The notes below the pieces were generated by a model that saw only the letters and a list, made by a program, of their open reading frames with translations, had not been told where the DNA came from and ran no database searches. Made by a program: the position numbers and the translations under genes. DNA of 48,725 bases from an uncultured Selenomonadales bacterium. Its GTDB lineage: Bacteria > Bacillota > Negativicutes > Selenomonadales > Selenomonadaceae. The stretch's first letter is position 1. Each line of letters starts with the position of its first letter. The DNA is taken from positions 1-48,725 of the forward strand of contig CAMUZG010000018.1 of assembly GCA_947165145.1 (NCBI GenBank), in the 5' to 3' direction. Shown in pieces: positions 1,791 to 48,725 of the stretch.

Positions 1791-1956
1791 CAACTTTTCT
1801 TTGCATGCCCAAAGAAAAGTTGCAAAAGAAAGGGCACCTCGCGGGGGCGTTCAAGTCCAAATAATTCCAACGTTGAGACTACCCGTGGCTCGTAGTTGTC
1901 GCCTTCGAAAACATCCTGTTTTCTGGGCGACGGGACGGCCGTCATCCATGACGGCC
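1791..1956 (+). repeat. Dispersed structured intergenic repeat, copy 1
   Basis: A 166-bp element with three hairpins. The first has arms CAACTTTTCTTTG and CAAAGAAAAGTTG (13 bp). It is followed by GGGCACCTCGCGGGGGCG. The second is built on GTCGCC...GGCGAC with an inner AAAAC/GTTTT. The third is the palindrome GGCCGTCATCCATGACGGCC. A second copy lies at 27288-27449 in the same orientation, with several stem changes compensated. The third hairpin abuts the stop codon of the M48 protease and could terminate its transcript. No protein product is evident. Confidence 0.85.
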
Positions 1957-13667: not shown

Positions 13668-15014
13668 TTGAACGCAAGAGATATAGACATGCTGCGCGGC
13701 TCGCTGTGGGATAAAATAATCCTGTTCGCCCTGCCGCTGGCATTGACGGGCGTCATGCAACAACTGCTTAACGCGGCGGACGTCGTGACGCTCGGCAAAT
13801 TCGTCGGCAAAAACGCAATGGCGGCGGTCGGCAACAACATCTCAATGGTCGGGCTTATCGTCAGTCTGCTTATGGGGTTGAGTCTCGGCGCAAACGTAGT
13901 CATTGCCCAAAATATCGGCGCAAAAAGAATTGACCGTGCTCACTTGGCGGTAAGCACGGCTTTTGTTTTGGCGAGTGTCGCGGGAATTTTTTTCTGCGTC
14001 GTCGGCGAAACGTTGGTCGCACCGATTTTCTATCTGCTTGAAGTGCCCGAACTCGTCGTCGACATGGCGGAAACGTACCTGCGAATTTTCCTGCTCGGTC
14101 TGCCCGCAATGAGCCTTTACAACTTCCAAGCGGCAATTTTCCGCAGCAAGGGCGACACGCGAACTCCGTTAATTGCTTTGGCGATTGCGAGCGGCGTCAA
14201 CATCGTGCTGAACCTGCTGTTCGTGTTGGAATTCGATTGGGGAATTGCGGGCGTCGCGGCGGCAACCGTCATTGCCAACATCGTCAGCGCGATAATTTTG
14301 TTCCGCGAATTGCTCAACGTCGACGGCGTCATCAAACTCAACCTGAACGCGCTGATTGTCGATCGCGACGAACTGTTCGAGATTGTGCGAATCGGATTGC
14401 CGGCGGGCGTTCAAGGCATGGTCTTTTCGCTGTCGAATTTGCTGATTCAAGCGGCGATAAATTCACTCGGCGCGGACGCAATGGCGGCATCGGCGGCGGC
14501 GTTCACGATTGAAATCAACGTTTTCTGCGTGGTGAACGGCTTCGGACAGGCGGCAACAACTTTTGTCGGACAAAATTACGGCGCGGGAAATTTGCAACGT
14601 TGCAAGCGCGTAACGTGGCTGTCAATGGGATTGAGCGCGGCTTTCATGCAGACGTTGTGCCTCGTGATTCTGTTTTTTGCCGAAGAAATTTTAAGTCTGT
14701 TCAATCGCGACCCCGAAGTCATAAGATTGGGCGTGATTCGGCTGTGGTACATCGTTGCGCCCGAATTAATCAACGTCTTAATGGAAGGACTGTCGGGTGC
14801 TCTGCGCGGCTACGGCATTTCGCTGACGCCAGCGGTGATAACGTTGATATGCGTGTGCGGCGTGCGTGTGACGTGGATTTTCACGGCGTTCAGGAACATT
14901 CCGACTTACGCGACGCTGATGGCGGTTTACCCGATAAGTTGGCTCATCACAACGATAATTTTGATTGCGGCTTATTTTTATCACGTCAAACACCTCAAGC
15001 CCGCGAGAGCTTAA
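13668..15014 (+). CDS. MATE family efflux transporter
   Basis: 448 aa, inner-membrane, about twelve hydrophobic segments in two similar halves, as expected for multidrug and toxin extrusion (MatE) proteins that export cationic compounds or metabolites by Na+ or H+ antiport. Seen: PLALTGVMQQLLNAADVVTLGKFVG in helix 1-2, SLLMGLSLGANVVIAQNIGAKR, and the second-half counterpart GQAATTFVGQNYGAGN. The start is TTG with GGAGGA 5 nt upstream. The substrate cannot be inferred. A heptanucleotide-repeat hairpin follows the stop codon and separates it from htpG. Confidence 0.92.
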   Translation: MNARDIDMLRGSLWDKIILFALPLALTGVMQQLLNAADVVTLGKFVGKNAMAAVGNNISMVGLIVSLLMGLSLGANVVIAQNIGAKRIDRAHLAVSTAFVLASVAGIFFCVVGETLVAPIFYLLEVPELVVDMAETYLRIFLLGLPAMSLYNFQAAIFRSKGDTRTPLIALAIASGVNIVLNLLFVLEFDWGIAGVAAATVIANIVSAIILFRELLNVDGVIKLNLNALIVDRDELFEIVRIGLPAGVQGMVFSLSNLLIQAAINSLGADAMAASAAAFTIEINVFCVVNGFGQAATTFVGQNYGAGNLQRCKRVTWLSMGLSAAFMQTLCLVILFFAEEILSLFNRDPEVIRLGVIRLWYIVAPELINVLMEGLSGALRGYGISLTPAVITLICVCGVRVTWIFTAFRNIPTYATLMAVYPISWLITTIILIAAYFYHVKHLKPARA

Positions 15015-15090
15015 TTAGGAATGTGGAATTTGGAATTTGGAATTAAAAACGCCTTCTCATTCCCAATTCCTAATTCCTAATTCCAAATTG
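15011..15090. repeat. Heptanucleotide repeat, inverted arms, between MATE gene and htpG
   Basis: Left arm: four 7-nt units of the GGAATTT type. Right arm: units of AATTCCT/AATTCCA. The arms are complementary around a 15-20 nt centre, so the array can fold into a long AT-rich hairpin. The same unit recurs at 18604, 28795, 33661 and 38574. Confidence 0.8.
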
Positions 15091-15111
15091 TTAAAAGGGG
15101 GAGAAATTTTT

Positions 15112-18584: not shown

Positions 18585-18603
18585 GAGAAAACCTCCTTTT
18601 GAT

Positions 18604-18643
18604 AATTTGGAATTAGGAATTAGGAATTAGGAATTTGGAATTA
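18604..18643. repeat. Heptanucleotide tandem repeat (GGAATTA type)
   Basis: Five consecutive 7-nt units of GGAATTA or GGAATTT lie between two secreted-protein genes, just upstream of the ribosome site of the 313-aa protein. Confidence 0.85.
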
Positions 18644-18648
18644 CAATC

Positions 18649-19353
18649 TTAGCCGCGAATTTTTTTGCCGACATCTTCAAAGAAAGAGTTCGTGATTCGT
18701 CCGAACATGCCTTTCTGCGCTTGATATTCTTGACGGTCGCGAACGTCTTTGCGGGCGAAAATAACTGCGCCTGTTCGAGCCTCGTAAACCTGCATCGACA
18801 TTTGAATCGAAGTCACGTCAACGCGGCGCGGCGGATAAGTCACGGGCACTTGAATATAATGAACTTCCTCGTGCCGACGACCGCGCGAATCGTAATAGTA
18901 ACTGGTCTCGCGTCTTTCTTCCCAAACAGTTCGCGCCGGCTCAACGTAATACGTGTTCGCCAAATTGTCGACGTTGGCGAGAACCCACGCGTCCGCAATG
19001 CGATAGGCGTTCTGCATGATGATTTGCCGAGCCTGCGCGGGATTGGAATACGCCATTGAATCAAGATTTATGCCGAGTTCATAGCCGATTGTGCGACGAG
19101 CTTGCGCCTCCGTGATGACGTTGCACTTGAGTTTCCGCGAATTCTGTTCGTAAGTGTCTTGCAAGTTCCGCGCCTCGATTGAATTGCCGTAGCCTAAGCT
19201 GGGATTGAACGTCGTATCGAAAAGGATAATCGTCCTGATGTTGCGGAAGTTGTAGCCTCGCTCGAACCAGTCGGTTTTTTCGGCGGAAGTCGTCTGCGGC
19301 AGAGCAATCATCGCCAACAGGAGCAACACGCCGAAAATTTTTTTGATTAACAC
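18649..19353 (-). CDS. Small secreted protein of unknown function
   Basis: 234 aa with a signal peptide (LIKKIFGVLLLLAMIALPQTTSA). The mature part begins EKTDWFERGYNFRNIRTIILFD, contains QARQIIMQNAYRIADAWVLANVDN, a Tyr/Arg-rich linker, and ends with a strand SIQMSMQVYEARTGAVIFARKDVRDR. The pattern of a surface strand ending in T-G-x-x-[VI]-[FW] resembles periplasmic lipoproteins of the DUF4136/LPP20 style, but this is a weak similarity. Start GTG is preceded by GAGGAGGTG. It follows hldD by 38 bp on the same strand, so co-transcription with the heptose gene is possible. Confidence 0.75.
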   Translation of the reverse strand: MLIKKIFGVLLLLAMIALPQTTSAEKTDWFERGYNFRNIRTIILFDTTFNPSLGYGNSIEARNLQDTYEQNSRKLKCNVITEAQARRTIGYELGINLDSMAYSNPAQARQIIMQNAYRIADAWVLANVDNLANTYYVEPARTVWEERRETSYYYDSRGRRHEEVHYIQVPVTYPPRRVDVTSIQMSMQVYEARTGAVIFARKDVRDRQEYQAQKGMFGRITNSFFEDVGKKIRG

Positions 19354-27287: not shown

Positions 27288-27449
27288 TTACTTTCTTTGC
27301 TTGCCCAAAGAAAGTAAGCAAAGAAAAGGCACCTCGCGGGGGCGGCTAATTGTAACACTCATCTCACCGTTCGATAACCGCGAGTCGTAGTGTCGCCTTC
27401 GAAAACATCACGTTTTCTGGGCGACGGGCGGCCGCCGTCCTTGGCGGCC
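27288..27449 (+). repeat. Dispersed structured intergenic repeat, copy 2
   Basis: Same architecture and orientation as the copy at 1791-1956. Hairpin 1 arms are TTACTTTCTTTG and CAAAGAAAGTAA. GGCACCTCGCGGGGGCGG follows. Hairpin 2 is GTCGCC...GGCGAC around CTTCGAAAACATC. Hairpin 3 is GGCCGCC / GGCGGCC. Stem differences from copy 1 are paired changes. It occupies most of the spacer between the divergent GGDEF regulator and obgE, ending 11 nt before the obgE promoter. Confidence 0.85.
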
Positions 27450-27459
27450 TCTCTTTAAC

Positions 27460-27488
27460 TTGACGCTGAAAAATTTTTCAGGCATAAT
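27460..27488 (+). promoter_or_regulatory. Promoter of obgE with palindromic spacer
   Basis: TTGACG, 17-nt spacer, CATAAT. The spacer contains the perfect 16-nt palindrome CTGAAAAATTTTTCAG, which could be an operator but is also composed of an AAAATTTT string common throughout this genome. Confidence 0.6.
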
Positions 27489-27504: not shown

Positions 27505-28791
<1,287 letters not shown>

Positions 28792-28794
28792 TTT

Positions 28795-28873
28795 CAATTT
28801 GGAATTGGTAATTAGGAATTTGGAATTAAAAGTCTAACACCTAAATGCTAAAAGCTGATAGCTGATAGCTGAC
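28795..28873. repeat. Heptanucleotide repeats between obgE and cheX-like gene
   Basis: A GGAATTT-type array (four units) is followed by an array of AGCTGAT (TGATAGC) units ending next to the cheX-like stop codon. Two unrelated units share the 7-nt period. Confidence 0.75.
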
Positions 28874-31439: not shown

Positions 31440-31632
31440 GGGTTTTGTGATTATCCTCTCTTTCCCGTGACCATTCGGGATGTAACATGTGCGAAGTCAG
31501 CTAAGCAGACAAATCACAACTACCGTAGGGACTACGGGAAGTAAAGCCTGTATGAGAGGAAATAAGACGCAACCTCGGCGCAACCTCGTTGATTCAGGAA
31601 GCTCCCGCCTCTTCAGGCGGCGAGTAGTTCAC
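31440..31632 (+). ncRNA. Candidate omega-RNA (TnpB guide RNA) scaffold remnant
   Basis: The 3' 190 bp of the element contain hairpins CCCG-TGACCATT-CGGG, CCGTAG-GGA-CTACGG and the right-end CCGCC/GGCGG stem in the positions expected for the tnpB-overlapping guide RNA of IS605 elements. The natural guide would be the flank starting GGAGTGATGAAC. This is inferred from position and folding by eye; expression is unknown and no tnpB is present in the window. Confidence 0.4.
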
Positions 31633-33660: not shown

Positions 33661-33716
33661 AATTAGGAATTAAACGGCGTCATCATTCCACATTCCTAAT
33701 TCCTAATTCCAAATTA
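33661..33716. repeat. Heptanucleotide repeats (AATTCCT type) before the 87-aa gene
   Basis: A left AATTAGGAATTA and a right array of four 7-nt units (ATTCCAC, ATTCCTA, ATTCCTA, ATTCCAA) form inverted arms, as at 15011-15090. Confidence 0.8.
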
Positions 33717-33792
33717 ATTAAAGGAGGTGAAATGTTTTGACGATATTTTTGGTGAAGGATACGACACGATTTTTTCCAAGGAGGAGATTACC

Positions 33793-38553: not shown

Positions 38554-38573
38554 AAAATCTACTCCTCAGATTT

Positions 38574-38606
38574 TTAATTCCAAATTCCTAATTCCACACT
38601 TCAAAT
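38574..38606. repeat. Heptanucleotide repeats (AATTCCA type)
   Basis: Three 7-nt units AATTCCA, AATTCCT, AATTCCA followed by a decayed copy, upstream of the SDR gene. Confidence 0.7.
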
Positions 38607-38628
38607 TGAATCAAATCTACTCCTCAAT

Positions 38629-39744: not shown

Positions 39745-41181
39745 CTATTTTTCTTCGACGCCGACAACATGTCGCACGCCGTAATATTGCGCGATAAGAA
39801 GATTTAAATTGTAGTTCGGATTTTCAATCATTCCGCCGAGAAAATGCAGGTAAGGTACAGCCGTCCTGTCGCCGTGAATTTTATCGAAACGATGACGCAC
39901 GGGCAACGGTGGCAGTTGAATCGGATCAAGTTCGGCATTGCGCTGAATGTAGCGTACTTGTCGCCGCGACGCATTGAAAACCGAAATGTCGACGTAAATC
40001 AGCGTGCCGAAGTAGACGACCAATAGCGTTGTCAAAGTTATCGACGCGCCGCGCAGAAATTTTTTCGGTAAATTAAACGTGAACTTGAAGTCGGAGCGTT
40101 CAAGCGACAGGATTGCACTCGTCGACGCCACGAGCGTGAACGCCATTGACGGCATTGACATGCGCAGATTGAATTCGGGCGAACAAAGCATAATCACCGG
40201 CACGAGGAATCCGCCTGCCGCGAACGCTAACATCAAAAACTCCGACGTGTTCAATTTGCCAGGCGTGCGTTTCGCGAAGTACAGGAACATCGGCACGAGC
40301 GCGATTAAATCGGCGGCGATGATTCGCGGAAATGGTTTGGTCAAGTAGTCGATTAAAAGTTCCGACGTGTAATGGAAGTTCGGGTGCGCCATTTCGAGCC
40401 GAGCAAAATTTCCTGGCGCGAGTATCATGAACGCACAGCTTATCGTTAACGTGACGAGACCCGCGAGCATCCACGGGCGAAAAAGTCCGCGACTCTTGCA
40501 CATAACGACCATAAAGACCGTCAAGCAGATTGTCACCAACGCGCCGACTTCGTTCGACCAGCCCGCCAAAATTCCAAGCACCATCATTATCACGATATTC
40601 AGCGCGGAATTGCCCGCTTCGTGCGACCGCAATGCTTTGACGTACGGCGTCAGGAAAAACAGTTGGAAGAACGACATCCACATGTAATTGCACGAGCCCG
40701 TAAGCCAGAACATTGTATTCATTGACCACGCGGCAATCAAGTTCAAGCACAGGAAAATCCACACGAGAGCCTTCCGCGAAATTTTCAGCCAAGTGTTCGC
40801 CAGATTGATTATGACGAGTATCAGCGCGATAAAAATTATCGTGTTGGCAATGTTGAAGTACGGCTTGCCAATCCACATGAAAAATTGAACGAGCGTGTGT
40901 GCGAAGACTCTGCCGCCCCACGTGAAATAATGCGACCACTGCGACTGAAAAATATCGCTGAGAGAATCGACGCGCTCACGGTGTTCAAGTTCGGGCGAAC
41001 CGAATTGCATTGCCGCCAAATTCCCGCCGTGTTCGCCGTCCCAAATGAACGCGTAACAAAAATCATCGTGCACAATCGGCAACAGCGACGTCCGCACGAA
41101 GAAATACAGCGCGAACATTGCGAACAGAATCATCGACCGCGACGAATTCATTGTTCGATTGATGTATTGCAGGAAACTCAA
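39745..41181 (-). CDS. DUF6056-like polytopic membrane protein, paralogue C
   Basis: 478 aa with about ten to twelve hydrophobic segments. The first outside loop has HDDFCYAFIWDGEHGGNL, and the next has SQWSHYFTWGGRVFAHTLVQFF. The acidic DD pair after helix 1 is what GT-C-fold glycosyltransferases show, so a lipid-linked glycosyl transfer role is plausible but not proven. Start TTG with GGAGGTTA upstream. It is the most divergent of three paralogues in this window and lies directly between sir2-like and HIT genes, 13 and 9 bp from them. Confidence 0.8.
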   Translation of the reverse strand: MSFLQYINRTMNSSRSMILFAMFALYFFVRTSLLPIVHDDFCYAFIWDGEHGGNLAAMQFGSPELEHRERVDSLSDIFQSQWSHYFTWGGRVFAHTLVQFFMWIGKPYFNIANTIIFIALILVIINLANTWLKISRKALVWIFLCLNLIAAWSMNTMFWLTGSCNYMWMSFFQLFFLTPYVKALRSHEAGNSALNIVIMMVLGILAGWSNEVGALVTICLTVFMVVMCKSRGLFRPWMLAGLVTLTISCAFMILAPGNFARLEMAHPNFHYTSELLIDYLTKPFPRIIAADLIALVPMFLYFAKRTPGKLNTSEFLMLAFAAGGFLVPVIMLCSPEFNLRMSMPSMAFTLVASTSAILSLERSDFKFTFNLPKKFLRGASITLTTLLVVYFGTLIYVDISVFNASRRQVRYIQRNAELDPIQLPPLPVRHRFDKIHGDRTAVPYLHFLGGMIENPNYNLNLLIAQYYGVRHVVGVEEK

Positions 41182-41194
41182 TCAATAACCTCCT

Positions 41195-41932
41195 TCATTT
41201 GAGCAGGGCGACCGCTTCCGCCAACGTTTTGCCGATATTTTCGCGAATGACAAGTTCGGCGTCATCGTCGGCACGCGTGGCAGTCTTGTTAATCAAAATC
41301 AAGTGTGGGCCGTTGAAACAGTCGATCAGTCCCGCCGCAGGATAAACGATTAAACTTGTGCCGCCGACAATCAACGTGTCCGCCGACGCAATCGCCAAGA
41401 CCGCCGCGCGTACTGTGGCATTGTTGAGCTGTTCGCCGTAGAGAACGACATCCGGCTTGACGATACCGCCGCAACGTGAGCAACGTGGCACGGGAATATT
41501 TTTCATCACGAAGTCAATATCGTAGTCGGTGCCGCACTTCAAACAGAAATTGCGCCGAATTGAGCCGTGCAGTTCGTGGACAACGTTCGAGCCCGCCGCT
41601 TGATGAAGTCCGTCAATATTTTGTGTGACGATTGCGTTTAAAATGCTGCGACGTTCCAATTCAGCCAACGCAAAATGTCCGGCATTTGGTTTGGCGTCAA
41701 GATGAACGATTCGCTCACGATAGAACGCGAAAAATTCTTCGGGGTGCGCCATGAAAAAATCATGCGACGCCATTTCTTCCGGCGAAAAAGTTTGATTGAG
41801 CTTCTGGCTGTAAATGCCGTTCGCGCTGCGGAAATCGGGAATGCCCGACTCGGTAGACATGCCTGCGCCGCCGAAGAACACCGCGTTCTTGCTCCGCGAC
41901 AAAATTTCTGAAAGTCTCTCAATGTCCGTCAT
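41195..41932 (-). CDS. NAD-dependent protein deacylase, sirtuin (CobB/Sir2)
   Basis: 245 aa. It removes acyl groups from protein lysines using NAD. Seen: GAGMSTESGIPDFRS (NAD site), TQNIDGLH, catalytic His in ELHGSI, a Zn ribbon with CLKC and CSRC, KPDVVLYGE, and VGGTSLIVYPAAGL. It lacks the Y/R pair typical of SIRT5-like desuccinylases at the usual place: YRER is present nearby, so acyl preference is left open. GGAGG precedes the ATG. It is wedged between paralogues B and C of the membrane-protein family, an unusual location. Confidence 0.93.
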   Translation of the reverse strand: MTDIERLSEILSRSKNAVFFGGAGMSTESGIPDFRSANGIYSQKLNQTFSPEEMASHDFFMAHPEEFFAFYRERIVHLDAKPNAGHFALAELERRSILNAIVTQNIDGLHQAAGSNVVHELHGSIRRNFCLKCGTDYDIDFVMKNIPVPRCSRCGGIVKPDVVLYGEQLNNATVRAAVLAIASADTLIVGGTSLIVYPAAGLIDCFNGPHLILINKTATRADDDAELVIRENIGKTLAEAVALLK

Positions 41933-41988
41933 ATCATATCGCCTCCAAATCAGTTAGGAATGTGGAATTAAAAACTCAAAGCTGAAAA

Positions 41989-43407
41989 CTAATTGTCGAC
42001 AGCGTAGACGTATTTTGCGCCGTAATACTGTGCGGCACAAGAATTGCGGCAACTATCGTTCTTCGCCTCGACGCCCGCGAAATATTCCATATACGGCGCA
42101 ACGCTCCTATCTCCATGAATTTTTTCAAAGCGGTGTCGAATATGCATCGGCGGCATCGGCACGGGATAAAGTTCGGCGTGTTCGTGAATGTACTGCGCTT
42201 GACGATTTGCTTCGCGGAAGATTGACACGTCAACATAAATCAGCGACAAACCGTAAGCCGTGAACAGCACAATCAACGACAACGACAGCCCGCGCAGAAA
42301 TTTTTTCGGCAAATGAGCGGCAAAATTTATCGGCGACGATTCGAGAATTGCGCTCGTTGTAGCAACCAAGACGAATACCAACGACGTGAACGAAACTTGC
42401 AAGTTGAATTCGGGCGAAAATAACATTGCCGTCGGCACAAGCAAACCCGTCGCCGCGAACGCAATCATCAAAATTTCCGACGTGTTCAATCGTCCGTGAG
42501 CCCGCCGCAAAAAATATGCAATCATCGGCAACAAAACGATTGTGTCGACGCCGACGATTGTCGCGAACGAGTTTGTCAGATGTTCAAAGAAAATTTCCGT
42601 CGTGTAATGATAGCCCGCGTGAGTGAGTCCGAGCCGCACGAAATTTCCTGGCGCGAACATCATCAACGCACAGCCGACAATCGCCGCCAATAAACCTGCC
42701 GTCATCCACGATCGTAGCAATCCGCGCGATTTGCTCAAGCCGATTAAAAATCCCGTCAAACAGATTGTGACTAAAGCTCCAGCCTCGTTTGACCAACCGG
42801 CAATCAATCCAAGCAAAATCATCAGCGCGACGTTGCCGCTTGACGACTTCGACCGCAAAGCCTTGACGTAAGGCGCGAGAAATAAAAGTTGGAAGAATGC
42901 CGCCCACATGTAATTGCATGAGCCCGTCAGCCAAAACAGCGTTACTGCCGACAACTTCATCAAGATGAACACGCTGAAGAAAATCCACAGCAATGCCGCC
43001 CGCGACACGTGTTGCCACAAGTTCGCAAGGAAAATTATCAGCAGGACGAGCGCGGCGAAAATTATCGTGTTGGCAATGTCGAACCACGGCTTGCCAATCC
43101 ACACGAAGAATTGAATTATTGTGTGCGTCAAAATTCTGCCGCCCCACGTGAAATAATGTGACCACATGGATTGCGCAATGTCGCTGAAAGAATCAACACG
43201 TTCACGCCGCTCAATGTCGAACGAACCAAATTGCATGCCCGCCAAATTCCCGCCGTGTTCGCCATCCCAAATGAACGCGTAGCTGTAATCGTCGTTGGAC
43301 AACGGCATCAAAATCGTCCGCACGAGAAAAAATATCGTGAACAGCGCGAAAATGCCCGTAGCCTGCGCGGCGTTAAGCGATTCGATTATGCGGCGGAAAA
43401 TTTTCAC
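41989..43407 (-). CDS. DUF6056-like polytopic membrane protein, paralogue B
   Basis: 472 aa from the GTG preceded by GAGGAGGAC (a longer frame to 43479 reads into the upstream gene's end and lacks a ribosome site). About ten to twelve membrane helices. Signature strings NDDYSYAFIWDGEHGGNL, SMWSHYFTWGGRIL, WLTGSCNYMW, GLIAGWSNEAGALVTICLTG, and a C-terminal cytosolic or periplasmic segment RHRFEKIHGDRSVAPYMEY. Large blocks are nearly identical to paralogue A, indicating recent tandem duplication. Confidence 0.82.
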   Translation of the reverse strand: MKIFRRIIESLNAAQATGIFALFTIFFLVRTILMPLSNDDYSYAFIWDGEHGGNLAGMQFGSFDIERRERVDSFSDIAQSMWSHYFTWGGRILTHTIIQFFVWIGKPWFDIANTIIFAALVLLIIFLANLWQHVSRAALLWIFFSVFILMKLSAVTLFWLTGSCNYMWAAFFQLLFLAPYVKALRSKSSSGNVALMILLGLIAGWSNEAGALVTICLTGFLIGLSKSRGLLRSWMTAGLLAAIVGCALMMFAPGNFVRLGLTHAGYHYTTEIFFEHLTNSFATIVGVDTIVLLPMIAYFLRRAHGRLNTSEILMIAFAATGLLVPTAMLFSPEFNLQVSFTSLVFVLVATTSAILESSPINFAAHLPKKFLRGLSLSLIVLFTAYGLSLIYVDVSIFREANRQAQYIHEHAELYPVPMPPMHIRHRFEKIHGDRSVAPYMEYFAGVEAKNDSCRNSCAAQYYGAKYVYAVDN

Positions 43408-43423
43408 GGCAAGTCCTCCTCGA

Positions 43424-44821
43424 TTAATCTTCGCGACCAATGACGTACTGCACGCCGTAATATCGCGCGACGAGAGCATTTAAGCTGACGTTCGGCTTGT
43501 CGTCTATGTTCGCGAAAAATTTCAGATAGGGCGCAACGCTTGCGTCCGAGTGAATCACGTCGAAGCGGTGTCGCAAATTCAGCGGTGGCAGTTCAATCAC
43601 GCCAAGTTCCCTGCGGCTTTCGATTTGCTGAATTTGTCGACGCGACTCCTTGAACAGCGACAAGTCGGAATAAATCAGCGTGGCGAAGTAAATCAGCAAA
43701 ATCATCGTCAACGTCGCGGCAATCGGTTTGACAATCGGCAATCGCGGTTCGAGTTCGGCAATCGCGCACGTCGACGCCACTACCGCGAATATCATCGAGC
43801 TCAGCGACAAGTACAAGGCGAATTCGGGCGAGAACAACATTATCGTCGGCACAAGCAAACCCGTCGCCGCGAACGCAATCATCAAAATTTCCGACGTGTT
43901 CAATCGTACGTGAGCCCGCCGCAGGAAATACGCAATCATCGGCAACAATGCCATGAAGTCCGCGCAGATTATCGGCAGGAACGAGTTCGACAGGTGCGCA
44001 AAGAAAATTTCCGTCGTGTAATTGAAATCGGGATGAATGAGCTCAAGCCGCACGAAATTTCCTGGCGCGAATATCATCAATGCACAGCCGACAATCGCCG
44101 CCGATAAACCCGCCGTCATCCACGAACGCAATAATCCGCGCGATTTGCTCAATCCGACTAAAAATCCCGTTAAACAGATTGTCACCAAAGCTCCCGCTTC
44201 GTTCGACCAGCCGGCAATCAATCCGAGCAAAATCATCAGCGGGACGTTGCCTTTCGACGAATTCGACCGCAAAGCCTTGACGTGCGGCAACAAGAATAAA
44301 AGTTGGAATGTCGCCGCCCACATGTAATTGCACGCGCCCGTTAAGCAAATCATCGACACGACCGAGAATTTCGTCAGCACGAACAGACAGAAGAAAATCC
44401 AGACGATTGCCGCCCGCGAAAATTTTTTCAGTCCGTCGGCAAGATGTAGCGTCGTCAGCACGAGCGCGGCGAAAATTATTGTGTTGGCAATGTCAAAGTA
44501 CGGCTTGCCAATCCAAACGAAGAATTGAACGATTGTATGCGACAAAATCCGTCCGCCCCACGTGAAATAATGCGACCACATGGATTGCGCAATGTCGCTG
44601 AAAGATTCGACACGTTCGCGATTTTCAATGTCAGCCGCGCCGAATTGCATTGCGTCCAAATTCCCGCCGTGTTCGCCGTCCCAGATGAATGCGTAGCCGT
44701 AATCGTCGCCCATCATCGGCGTCAAGGCATTGCGGACGAAAAATAATCCCGTGAACAGCGCGAACAGAATCGTTGCCTGCGGACAGCTCAGCGATTGAAT
44801 CACGCGGCGGAAATTTTTCAC
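43424..44821 (-). CDS. DUF6056-like polytopic membrane protein, paralogue A
   Basis: 465 aa, GTG start with GAGGAGGTC upstream, first gene of the run. Signature GDDYGYAFIWDGEHGGNL after helix 1, SMWSHYFTWGGRILSHTIVQFF, CLTGACNYMW, and RHRFDVIHSDASVAPYLKF at the C-terminus. Predicted inner-membrane protein with GT-C-like topology; function unassigned. The stop codon is 16 bp before paralogue B. No obvious partner such as a polyprenyl-phosphate glycosyltransferase is adjacent, though an O-antigen ligase gene lies 2 kb away on the other strand. Confidence 0.82.
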   Translation of the reverse strand: MKNFRRVIQSLSCPQATILFALFTGLFFVRNALTPMMGDDYGYAFIWDGEHGGNLDAMQFGAADIENRERVESFSDIAQSMWSHYFTWGGRILSHTIVQFFVWIGKPYFDIANTIIFAALVLTTLHLADGLKKFSRAAIVWIFFCLFVLTKFSVVSMICLTGACNYMWAATFQLLFLLPHVKALRSNSSKGNVPLMILLGLIAGWSNEAGALVTICLTGFLVGLSKSRGLLRSWMTAGLSAAIVGCALMIFAPGNFVRLELIHPDFNYTTEIFFAHLSNSFLPIICADFMALLPMIAYFLRRAHVRLNTSEILMIAFAATGLLVPTIMLFSPEFALYLSLSSMIFAVVASTCAIAELEPRLPIVKPIAATLTMILLIYFATLIYSDLSLFKESRRQIQQIESRRELGVIELPPLNLRHRFDVIHSDASVAPYLKFFANIDDKPNVSLNALVARYYGVQYVIGRED

Positions 44822-47904: not shown

Positions 47905-48675
47905 TTGACAATCGACGAAAAAATTTTTGAAGAACCCGAAGGCGAAGGCGTCACGGTCGAGGAACCTTTAACCGACAAACGACGCGCTGCCTTACAGAAA
48001 TTTGCTGACGAACTCGGCGTAAAATTTTCACGGCTTGAATTGCTCAATCGTGCGCTTACACACAAATCTTACGCAAAAGAATTCGAGCCGCGTCTGAAGT
48101 ACAATGAACGTCTAGAATTTTTAGGCGATGCTGTCTTAGGCTTGGCGGCAGGCACTTACCTTTTCGAGCACTTCCCGAACTTGACGGAGGGCGAACTGAC
48201 TAAAATGCGTTCAAGCGTCGTCCGTCAATCAACGCTCACTCGGCAGGCAAAAGAAATTGGAATAGGCGAATTGATTTTGCTTGGTCCGACGGAAGAGGCG
48301 ACAACTCGCGGTCTTGAATCGAACCTTGAAGACGCAATGGAAGCTGTTATCGGAGCGATTTACTTGGAAAACGGCTGGGAAGTCGCCCGCGATTACGTCT
48401 TCCGCCAATTTGCCCACGAATTCGAGCACGTCAAAATCACGGGCATTCCGAAGGATTATAAAAGCAAGTTGCAAGAGGTCATTCAACGCGACCCGTCCCG
48501 CAAGCTCACTTACACCGAACTGAACGTTATCGGACCGCCGCATGATAGAACGTTCGAGGCAGCCGCGTTGCTTGACGGTAGATTTATCGGTCGTGGTGTC
48601 GGACGTAGCAAAAAATCTGCTGAACAGGAGGCCGCTAAAGCCGCGCTCCAAAAACTTGGTGAATTAAGCGAGTGA
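47905..48675 (+). CDS. rnc: Ribonuclease III
   Basis: 256 aa, a dsRNA-specific endonuclease for rRNA and mRNA processing. The catalytic signature NERLEFLGDAVLGL and the later metal-binding EDAMEAVIGAIYL are intact, followed by a C-terminal dsRBD (KDYKSKLQEVIQ, GRGVGRSKKSAEQEAAKAAL). An N-terminal acidic extension of about 25 residues is present. TTG at 47905 is chosen, 5 nt after GAGGTGA; a GTG at 47896 overlaps that ribosome site. The TGA stop codon lies inside the terminal bases of an IS605-type right end, so the last residue(s) may have been set by the insertion. Confidence 0.95.
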   Translation: MTIDEKIFEEPEGEGVTVEEPLTDKRRAALQKFADELGVKFSRLELLNRALTHKSYAKEFEPRLKYNERLEFLGDAVLGLAAGTYLFEHFPNLTEGELTKMRSSVVRQSTLTRQAKEIGIGELILLGPTEEATTRGLESNLEDAMEAVIGAIYLENGWEVARDYVFRQFAHEFEHVKITGIPKDYKSKLQEVIQRDPSRKLTYTELNVIGPPHDRTFEAAALLDGRFIGRGVGRSKKSAEQEAAKAALQKLGELSE

Positions 48676-48725
48676 ACTACTCGCCGCCTGAAGAGGCGGG
48701 AGCTTCCTGAATCATCGAGGTTGCG
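48672..48725 (-). mobile_element. Right end of a second IS200/IS605-family element (truncated by window end)
   Basis: On the minus strand, 53 of 54 bases match the right end at 31579-31632, including the CCGCC-TCTTCA-GGCGG hairpin and terminal GTAGTTCAC. The rest of the element lies beyond the window, and whether it carries tnpA or tnpB cannot be seen. Its end abuts and supplies the stop codon of rnc. Confidence 0.85.

Follow-up and report, generated by a model that had tools for sequence, protein, structure and literature searches.

The two related intergenic stretches at positions 1791-1956 (copy 1) and 27288-27449 (copy 2) of the window, the whole 48,725-nucleotide stretch of DNA that we analysed, are best read, at a probability of roughly one half, as copies of a dispersed non-coding mosaic intergenic repeat that is BIME-like and whose head acts as a folded single DNA strand. 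We propose that the head has the layout of an intrastrand-triplex pseudoknot, in which the linker behind the first hairpin could lie along that hairpin as a third strand. Behind the head comes a tail of two more hairpins, whose stems vary and whose loop is mostly TCC, or GGA when read on the opposite strand.

Two copies in the window and a mosaic repeat in the genome

Both copies are where the first-pass annotation had put them from the letters alone and share one orientation, here the plus strand. In copy 1, hairpins H1, H2 and H3 occupy 1791-1822, 1898-1931 and 1937-1956. An A/T-rich conserved 5' flank (1771-1790; consensus about TTTAAWTTTGWTGAT, from position frequencies in 38 of the 39 own-genome copies) leads into H1, which sequence and covariation divide into a pyrimidine 5' arm CAACTTTTCTTTG (1791-1803), a loop (1804-1809) and a purine 3' arm CAAAGAAAAGTTG (1810-1822). 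Covariation and loop-strand pairing mark TGCC at 1806-1809 as the 5' strand of a pseudoknot helix and GGCA at 1833-1836 as its 3' strand. Between them lies the linker AAAAGAAA (1824-1831), placed by its match to the arm, a mirror image of the purine arm and a putative third strand. There follow a conserved box CCTCGCGGGGGCG (1837-1849; box search and copy alignment) and, by sequence and copy comparison, an H2 of type a (GTCGCC...GGCGAC, loop TCC) and H3 GGCCGTCATCCATGACGGCC (loop TCCA). The neighbours of copy 1 are a DegT/DnrJ/EryC1-type aminotransferase gene and an M48 peptidase/TPR gene.

The sequence of copy 2 follows the same order: H1 (TTACTTTCTTTG / CAAAGAAAGTAA; 27288-27317) with its loop at 27300-27305; a linker AAAGAAA (27320-27326), of the class A3GA3 and shortened together with the stem; and GGCA (27328-27331), which pairs with the loop TGCC at 27302-27305. 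Comparison of the copies places H2, again of type a and with the loop ATCAC, at 27392-27425 and H3 GGCCGCCGTCCTTGGCGGCC at 27430-27449. Copy 2 lies between obg and a diverging response-regulator/GGDEF gene, upstream of a promoter-like site before obg (TTGACG-17-CATAAT, 27460-27488, plus strand) that stands just outside the copy and has similar counterparts ahead of obg at several of 21 loci from relatives. An obg leader element was rejected: judged by eye, one of 21 same-genus obg loci (of 60 genomes with a match) has a head, and that head is of a different type. It lies upstream of obg in G021 (locus L228) and faces the other way; its pseudoknot strands are GCAG/CTGC, and its triplex layout is shorter.

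The stem changes quoted earlier proved correct, with GGCCGTC/GACGGCC in copy 1 against GGCCGCC/GGCGGCC in copy 2, and CAACTTTT/AAAAGTTG against TTACTTT/AAAGTAA. Copy 1 has a folding z-score of -5.09 on the plus strand and -3.92 on the minus strand, and none of 200 dinucleotide shuffles was as stable on either. The three hairpins of the first-pass annotation are present, but they do not make a plain three-hairpin array, and paired change is only part of what happens to the stems, since H2 is also swapped whole. The annotation had missed the pairing of the H1 loop with 1833-1836 and the mirroring of the purine arm by the linker.

The own assembly (1.94 Mb in 43 contigs, 83% complete) holds this one mosaic non-coding repeat at 39 places by blastn, two of them fragments, so identity is not limited to the two named loci. 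The places were reduced from 66 blastn rows by leaving out palindrome-arm rows and one 18-nt row; beside the fragments they comprise 36 copies near full length (query included) and one split by a foreign H2. The query itself scored an E-value of 5e-96 and the best other copy 1e-74. The box GGCACCTCGCGGGGGCG occurred 35 times in the genome at no more than two mismatches, and its backward control not once. Read on the plus strand, the order is an A/T-rich flank of about 20 nt, H1, the purine linker, the box CCTCGC(A/G)GGGGCG, a variable stretch, H2 and H3, with H1 a 13-bp hairpin of pyrimidine 5' arm and purine 3' arm. H2 is exchanged entire among at least four unrelated stems that combine with different H1 and H3 forms, which makes the repeat a mosaic. 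Each own-genome copy carries a single head, not two inverted ones.

The window contains other repeats as well. Positions 31579-31632 and 48672-48725 form a 54-nt inverted pair, 98% complementary (CGCAACCTCGTTGATTCAGGAAGCTCCCGCC...), which resembles an end of an IS200/IS605-type tnpB element. Seven-nucleotide units (AATTAGG / AATTTGG) are repeated on both strands at 15013-15111, 18590-18660, 28782-28845, 33663-33737, 38572-38608 and 41952-41987, mostly in or near inter-ORF gaps. Three related DNA copies extend over neighbouring ORFs at 39745-44821; the one tested, 43424-44821, is DUF6056.

Loop pairing and the mirrored linker of the head

The H1 loop pairs with a strand past the linker to give a pseudoknot, and the two strands covary: TGCC occurs with GGCA, TGTC with GACA and CGCA with TGCG. 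Pairs were counted over 37 aligned own-genome heads (34 distinct, the two fragments left out), whose kinship by descent means that the shuffle tests overstate independence. Of all cells, 94.6% pair, against 87.8 when shuffled (0 of 500 shuffles reach this) and 36-59 when slid. Both sides change at 7 of 17 pairs (reached by 5 of 500 shuffles) and in 39 cells (0 of 500), and the covariation score is 0.202 against 0.081 shuffled (0 of 500). A fifth measure in these heads, the number of further pair types, did not exceed the shuffles (7 against 9.0; 496 of 500 reach it). Columns 26-29 pair with 55-58 in all 34 distinct rows, three of the four pairs changing on both sides. Columns 30/54, once assumed to be a pseudoknot pair, fail in 17 of 34 rows; the C there closes H1 with the G before the loop. 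Of the 83 hairpin-forming heads chosen by the box, 77 have a loop that forms 4 bp with the downstream strand, and 27 of 33 distinct loop/strand combinations pair (shuffled mean 14.4, maximum 23). The hairpin and pseudoknot pairing is very probably real. The earlier proposal that paired change implies selection on the folding of RNA or single-stranded DNA is supported, for single strands, by the covariation of stem, loop and linker across genomic copies, a check that the proposal itself had suggested.

The linker mirrors the purine arm of H1, and stem length, linker length and the place of the inner G shift together through the classes A3GA3, A3GA4, A3GA5, A4GA3, A4GA4 and A3GAGA3; all 37 own-genome linkers could be classified, as could 52 from the same genus, all with a matching inner run. 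We compared arms and linkers in heads selected on the downstream box and on nothing else, 85 distinct copies of which 83 have a hairpin, scoring a match when at most four base-side arm letters were dropped and at least six letters agreed exactly. In 81 of 83 heads the linker and the arm of the same copy matched (shuffled mean 51.4, maximum 60), and 22 of 24 distinct arm/linker pairs matched (mean 9.9, maximum 17), neither count being reached in 5000 shuffles; a direct, unmirrored match was found in 27 of 83. The result is carried by the own genome (29 of 29) and the same genus (37 of 39), each with 0 of 5000 shuffles. The 15 copies from other MAGs are uninformative, as the A3GA4 pattern itself had been used to collect their loci (their count is reached in 1316 of 5000 shuffles).

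Inverted arms, loop pairing and a mirrored linker fit an intrastrand triplex pseudoknot, and they fit neither an ordinary hairpin nor a mirror repeat of double-stranded DNA only. The linker probably serves as a third strand, and the three strands may form an actual triple helix, as predicted from the layout. The minus strand would then contain T.A-T and C.G-C triplets with the third strand parallel to the purine arm, and the plus strand A.A-T and G.G-C triplets with an antiparallel third strand; in the scheme given in the main text of PMC4666352, the plus strand of the head would be class II and the minus strand class IV. In G111 and G353, from another genus of the same family, the mirrored linker is kept and the loop is short, and we saw no pseudoknot partner for that loop in their heads. 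Natural three-way covariation that joins a mirrored third strand to both arms is unusual as evidence that selection acts on a triple-helix layout and not on a hairpin alone, and the six linker classes are ready natural variants for structural work.

Orientation, tail loops and the case for an RNA

Gene orientation was read from uncurated calls made by codon or hexamer scores, with gap edges that sometimes overlap predicted ORFs; '--' marks genes antisense to the element's plus strand. Among 38 own-genome heads, 24 were '--', 4 '++', 7 '-+' and 3 '+-' (p 0.0002 for 24:4), and a cruder count (n=39) gave 23, 4, 8 and 4. The minus strand is thus the sense strand in 24 of 28 codirectional gaps, as expected if it were a structured RNA co-read with its operon, capped by the triplex pseudoknot and binding CsrA through the GGA loops of H3 and H2, the roughly 40 copies acting as 3' UTR stabilisers or CsrA sinks. 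We consider this account doubtful, and the evidence for it lies in the tail as well as in orientation. H3 is present in all 37 box-bearing own copies, with TCC in every loop although the stem takes several forms, and its two variable core pairs remain Watson-Crick in each of 35 parsable rows (37 less two); tail stems were found by requiring perfect arms, so that this completeness is partly by construction. TCC also forms the H2 loop in 27 of the 37, the other 10 having ATCAC, which gives no GGA on the minus strand. Tail hairpins with TCC loops numbered 64 of 77 in the own genome, 78 of 106 in the same genus, 18 of 28 in G111/G353 and 39 of 60 in other Selenomonadaceae, a total for the family of 199 TCC against one GGA. 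Samples from Kordia, Thermodesulfobacteriota, Chitinophaga, other Bacteroidota, Paraburkholderia and Ilyobacter had no TCC loop. The own-genome bias and the TCC/GGA asymmetry point to one strand mattering, as it would in an RNA.

CsrA binds GGA, the minus-strand reading of the TCC loops. The own genome carries csrA, as do 12 of 16 genomes tested, all 12 being among the 13 Selenomonadaceae; the gene was absent, among those 16, from G380, G381 and G382 and from the 60%-complete G005. The lineage samples of G380, G381 and G382 also have no TCC loops, but this contrast sets one clade against the others and hence counts as about one event, and csrA also occurs in same-genus genomes with no element matches (G003, G006 and G034). 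The link between csrA and the GGA loops is therefore a lead. RNA can form only the third strand of the pyrimidine motif (main text of PMC4666352), which in this element belongs to the minus strand.

The orientation was not constant elsewhere. In the same genus, 14 heads were '--' and 18 '++' among 51 (from 88 loci, the rest falling outside the regular expression; four of the 51 lacked one neighbour). G111 and G353 have both csrA and TCC loops, but their orientation is reversed, with 7 '++' and no '--' among 12 heads, two of the seven depending, at a low gene threshold, on right-hand genes of weak score (8 and 12); in 9 of the 12, TTTCTTTG of the head begins no more than 16 nt from the predicted stop of the plus-strand gene. 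GGA stands in hairpin loops of the minus strand, and by gene direction the sense strand is minus in the own genome and plus in G111/G353. Further '--':'++' counts were 7:2 in other Selenomonadaceae MAGs and 5:2 in Kordia, a weak lean towards the own-genome sense, 1:3 in Thermodesulfobacteriota and 1:1 in the Chitinophaga type; a cruder gene model put these four at 10:2, 10:4, 1:2 and 1:0. Loci of the exact-pattern search outside the listed matches gave 6:5. New loci, which like those of G111/G353 came from the looser-pattern search described below, gave 1:3 in Kordia, 1:2 in G383 and 1:1 in G381, several of these rows having weak gene scores. On contig 1 of Kordia algicida (G380), elements seem to be oriented by replichore: with GC skew sampled at 20 places, the counts are 12:2 on one side and 4:7 on the other (p 0.017, for a split drawn after the data had been seen).

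Because the bias differs between genera, there is no constant strand relative to genes, and 24:4 in the own genome against 0:7 in the sister genus and 14:18 in the same genus does not support a one-strand RNA role. A minus-strand RNA as a general rule, favoured by the own-genome bias, is weakened by the same-genus and G111/G353 counts, and copy 2, between two diverging genes and upstream of the obg promoter-like site, does not suit it either. The three ratios suit a DNA element better. For the folded DNA head, this difference in orientation to transcription is why we take the form under selection to be single-stranded DNA, presumably a strand made at replication or strand transfer.

Distribution, mobility and likeness to known repeats

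An exact-pattern search of genome contigs found at least 112 stretches. The 80 among the matches listed come from Selenomonadaceae, Quinella, Kordia, Mesonia, Chitinophaga, other Bacteroidota, Thermodesulfobacteriota and Desulfobacterales, with one listed match each from a MAG of Christensenellaceae and a MAG of Blackburnbacteria, the latter without a matching 5' arm; the pattern is also present in two viral contigs. Bacteroidota, Thermodesulfobacteriota, Fusobacteriota and Pseudomonadota have the head, with other tails. The first-pass suggestion of a recurrent intergenic repeat in bacteria is supported and much widened. The element is narrow within its own phylum: a looser pattern matched 3 of 299 genomes, the own genome (29 matches) and two of its family (10 and 2). 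That pattern also gave 25 matches in Kordia algicida, 34 in a Thermodesulfobacteriota MAG, 2 in a Chitinophaga MAG, 21 in a Selenomonadaceae MAG and 6 in an Ilyobacter plasmid, and the backward-read control gave none in the 299 genomes and five further genomes or records. By blastn, 23 of 36 other same-genus genomes matched, several weakly, and none of 23 genomes from other families of the class did. Part of the head matched 11 of 72,556 plasmid records, all of at least 0.96 Mb (Paraburkholderia 7, Pseudoalteromonas 2, Aeromonas 1, Ilyobacter 1). In the Aeromonas (L339) and Pseudoalteromonas (L338) loci, palindromes with a central ATCC (GGCCATCCATGGCC, GACATCCTGTC, GCCCATCCATGGGC) adjoin the heads. 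The 63-nt head had no match at E 0.01 in 50,697 phage records, and a phage origin was rejected.

The first-pass annotation had suggested looking for a linked transposase. A Y1/RAYT gene was found neither in the own assembly, 83% complete, nor in any of 12 relatives rich in the element (at least five blastn matches each), and a REP with its RAYT was rejected on this ground. Six of 60 same-genus genomes have Y1 transposases (G002, G014, G027, G028, G061 and G080); none is among the 12 others with at least five matches, and G014 has three matches and a short Y1 fragment. A recurrent neighbour gene as autonomous partner was also rejected, all-against-all blastp of ORFs beside heads giving clusters of at most three at the 80 listed loci.

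If the head were a DNA triplex like that of BoxC/PIT, it might stall replication forks and raise local rearrangement, the copies being by-products of the instability. The strand order (pyrimidine, purine, purine third strand) is that of a class II intrastrand triplex, the main text of PMC4666352 describes triplex formation in vitro by the related TM_ECO and its presence as a mark of variable loci, and the tails here are mosaic. However, G-G-C triplets, from which purine-motif triplexes draw their stability according to the same text, are few here, and TM_ECO has neither pseudoknot nor tail hairpins, which leaves this explanation improbable.

Less plausible still are the ends of a classical MITE whose DDE transposase recognises the head as a terminal inverted repeat. 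What favours them comes from P. caribensis MBA4, where 48 of 51 full-length heads among the matches listed can be grouped into 24 inverted pairs; the starts are 515-531 bp apart in 21 of these and 1.70-1.90 kb apart in the other 3, and one long pair (NZ_CP012748.1, heads 427936 and 429794, about 1.9 kb apart) encloses a 425-aa Mutator-family transposase (PF00872, E 5e-126; gene at 2585-3862 of L337). Inverted pairs were seen in P. caribensis only, and the own-genome copies are single-headed. Eight short pairs, when aligned, had mosaic interiors and only about 530 bp between heads. In the one long pair that was read, what follows the purine linker is unlike its counterpart in the short pairs, which would suit the landing of an IS in a short pair, and the Mutator-family gene is perhaps such an IS inserted into a short composite. 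At three filled P. caribensis sites, two other strains of the species matched along the whole query; Paraburkholderia sp. PGU19 did so at two and was rearranged at the third, where P. largidicola aligned on a single flank. At two of the sites in P. phymatum and at one in Caballeronia, the intergenic stretch measures 57 to 291 nt, against 792 to 1,027 in P. caribensis; these shorter sites are diverged and could be losses. Related repeats without present function, their pairing kept by gene conversion between inverted arms and not by selection on folding, are largely refuted, for the copies are indeed related and recombining, but such conversion leaves the loop-to-strand pairing and the mirrored, not inverted, linker unexplained.

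We return to a folded single-stranded DNA head, whose copies would spread and swap modules through trans-acting machinery that acts on the fold and is other than a Y1/RAYT enzyme. More tentatively, and with odds somewhat against it, the heads may represent one class of signal shared across phyla, a single strand of DNA folded into a pseudoknotted, A/T-rich triple helix. A putative enzyme or replication factor would recognise it and would spread and recombine short intergenic repeats, to which lineages add specific tails for local use, such as GGA-loop hairpins in CsrA-bearing Selenomonadaceae. A head found in several phyla, absent from the phage records searched and without the usual REP transposase raises two testable questions, the role of intrastrand-triplex repeats and their mover.

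Several known systems resemble the repeat in part. No known Rfam RNA accounts for it, with no match at gathering score in the window (the only one at E of at most 10 was RF02941, E 2.9, 14.9 bits against 71.8) and, in 15 other loci, only tRNA and Flavo-1, the latter 2.7 kb from a head. CsrB/RsmY-type RNAs bind CsrA and, like the minus strand here, have variable-stem hairpins with GGA loops; the repeat differs in having two hairpins per copy, dispersed copies, inconstant gene orientation and 10 of 37 H2 loops without GGA. H-type triplex pseudoknots exist in RNA, for example in telomerase RNA, and the pyrimidine loop of the minus strand would likewise be parallel to the purine arm, the arrangement of a major-groove triplex; unlike them, this is a repeated DNA element, known here from its sequence. 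With REP and BIME sequences it shares short, palindromic, mosaic units in many copies between genes. The earlier label REP/MITE-like therefore holds loosely, in that the repeat is short, intergenic, palindromic, mosaic and patchy, and fails on the missing Y1/RAYT gene in the genomes searched and on the single head, which lacks the terminal inverted repeats of a MITE.

The closest likeness is to the BoxC/PIT/TM_ECO repeats, which, on the main text of PMC4666352, have the same order of pyrimidine arm, loop, purine arm, short spacer and mirrored purine strand and are likewise intergenic, dispersed and patchy between relatives, their mover not known. The class II strand order with mirrored third strand is found here in the 81 of 83 heads. 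TM_ECO is described there as G/C-rich (CCCTCNCCC...), about 36 nt long and drawn from 262 proteobacterial genomes, and many A/T-rich potential triplexes were counted in general; the word 'pseudoknot' is absent from that main text, and a pseudoknotted A/T-rich triplex repeat was not found in the parts of the open-licence literature covered by our search. The heads are A/T-rich and do not follow the G/C-rich consensus CCCTCNCCC-N3-6-GGGNGAGGG-N3-GGGNGAGGG. Unlike TM_ECO, the repeat also has a loop-strand pseudoknot, occurs in several phyla and, in the own genome, adds a box and a two-hairpin tail. A non-member by consensus, it is in layout a new variant of these bacterial intrastrand-triplex repeats.
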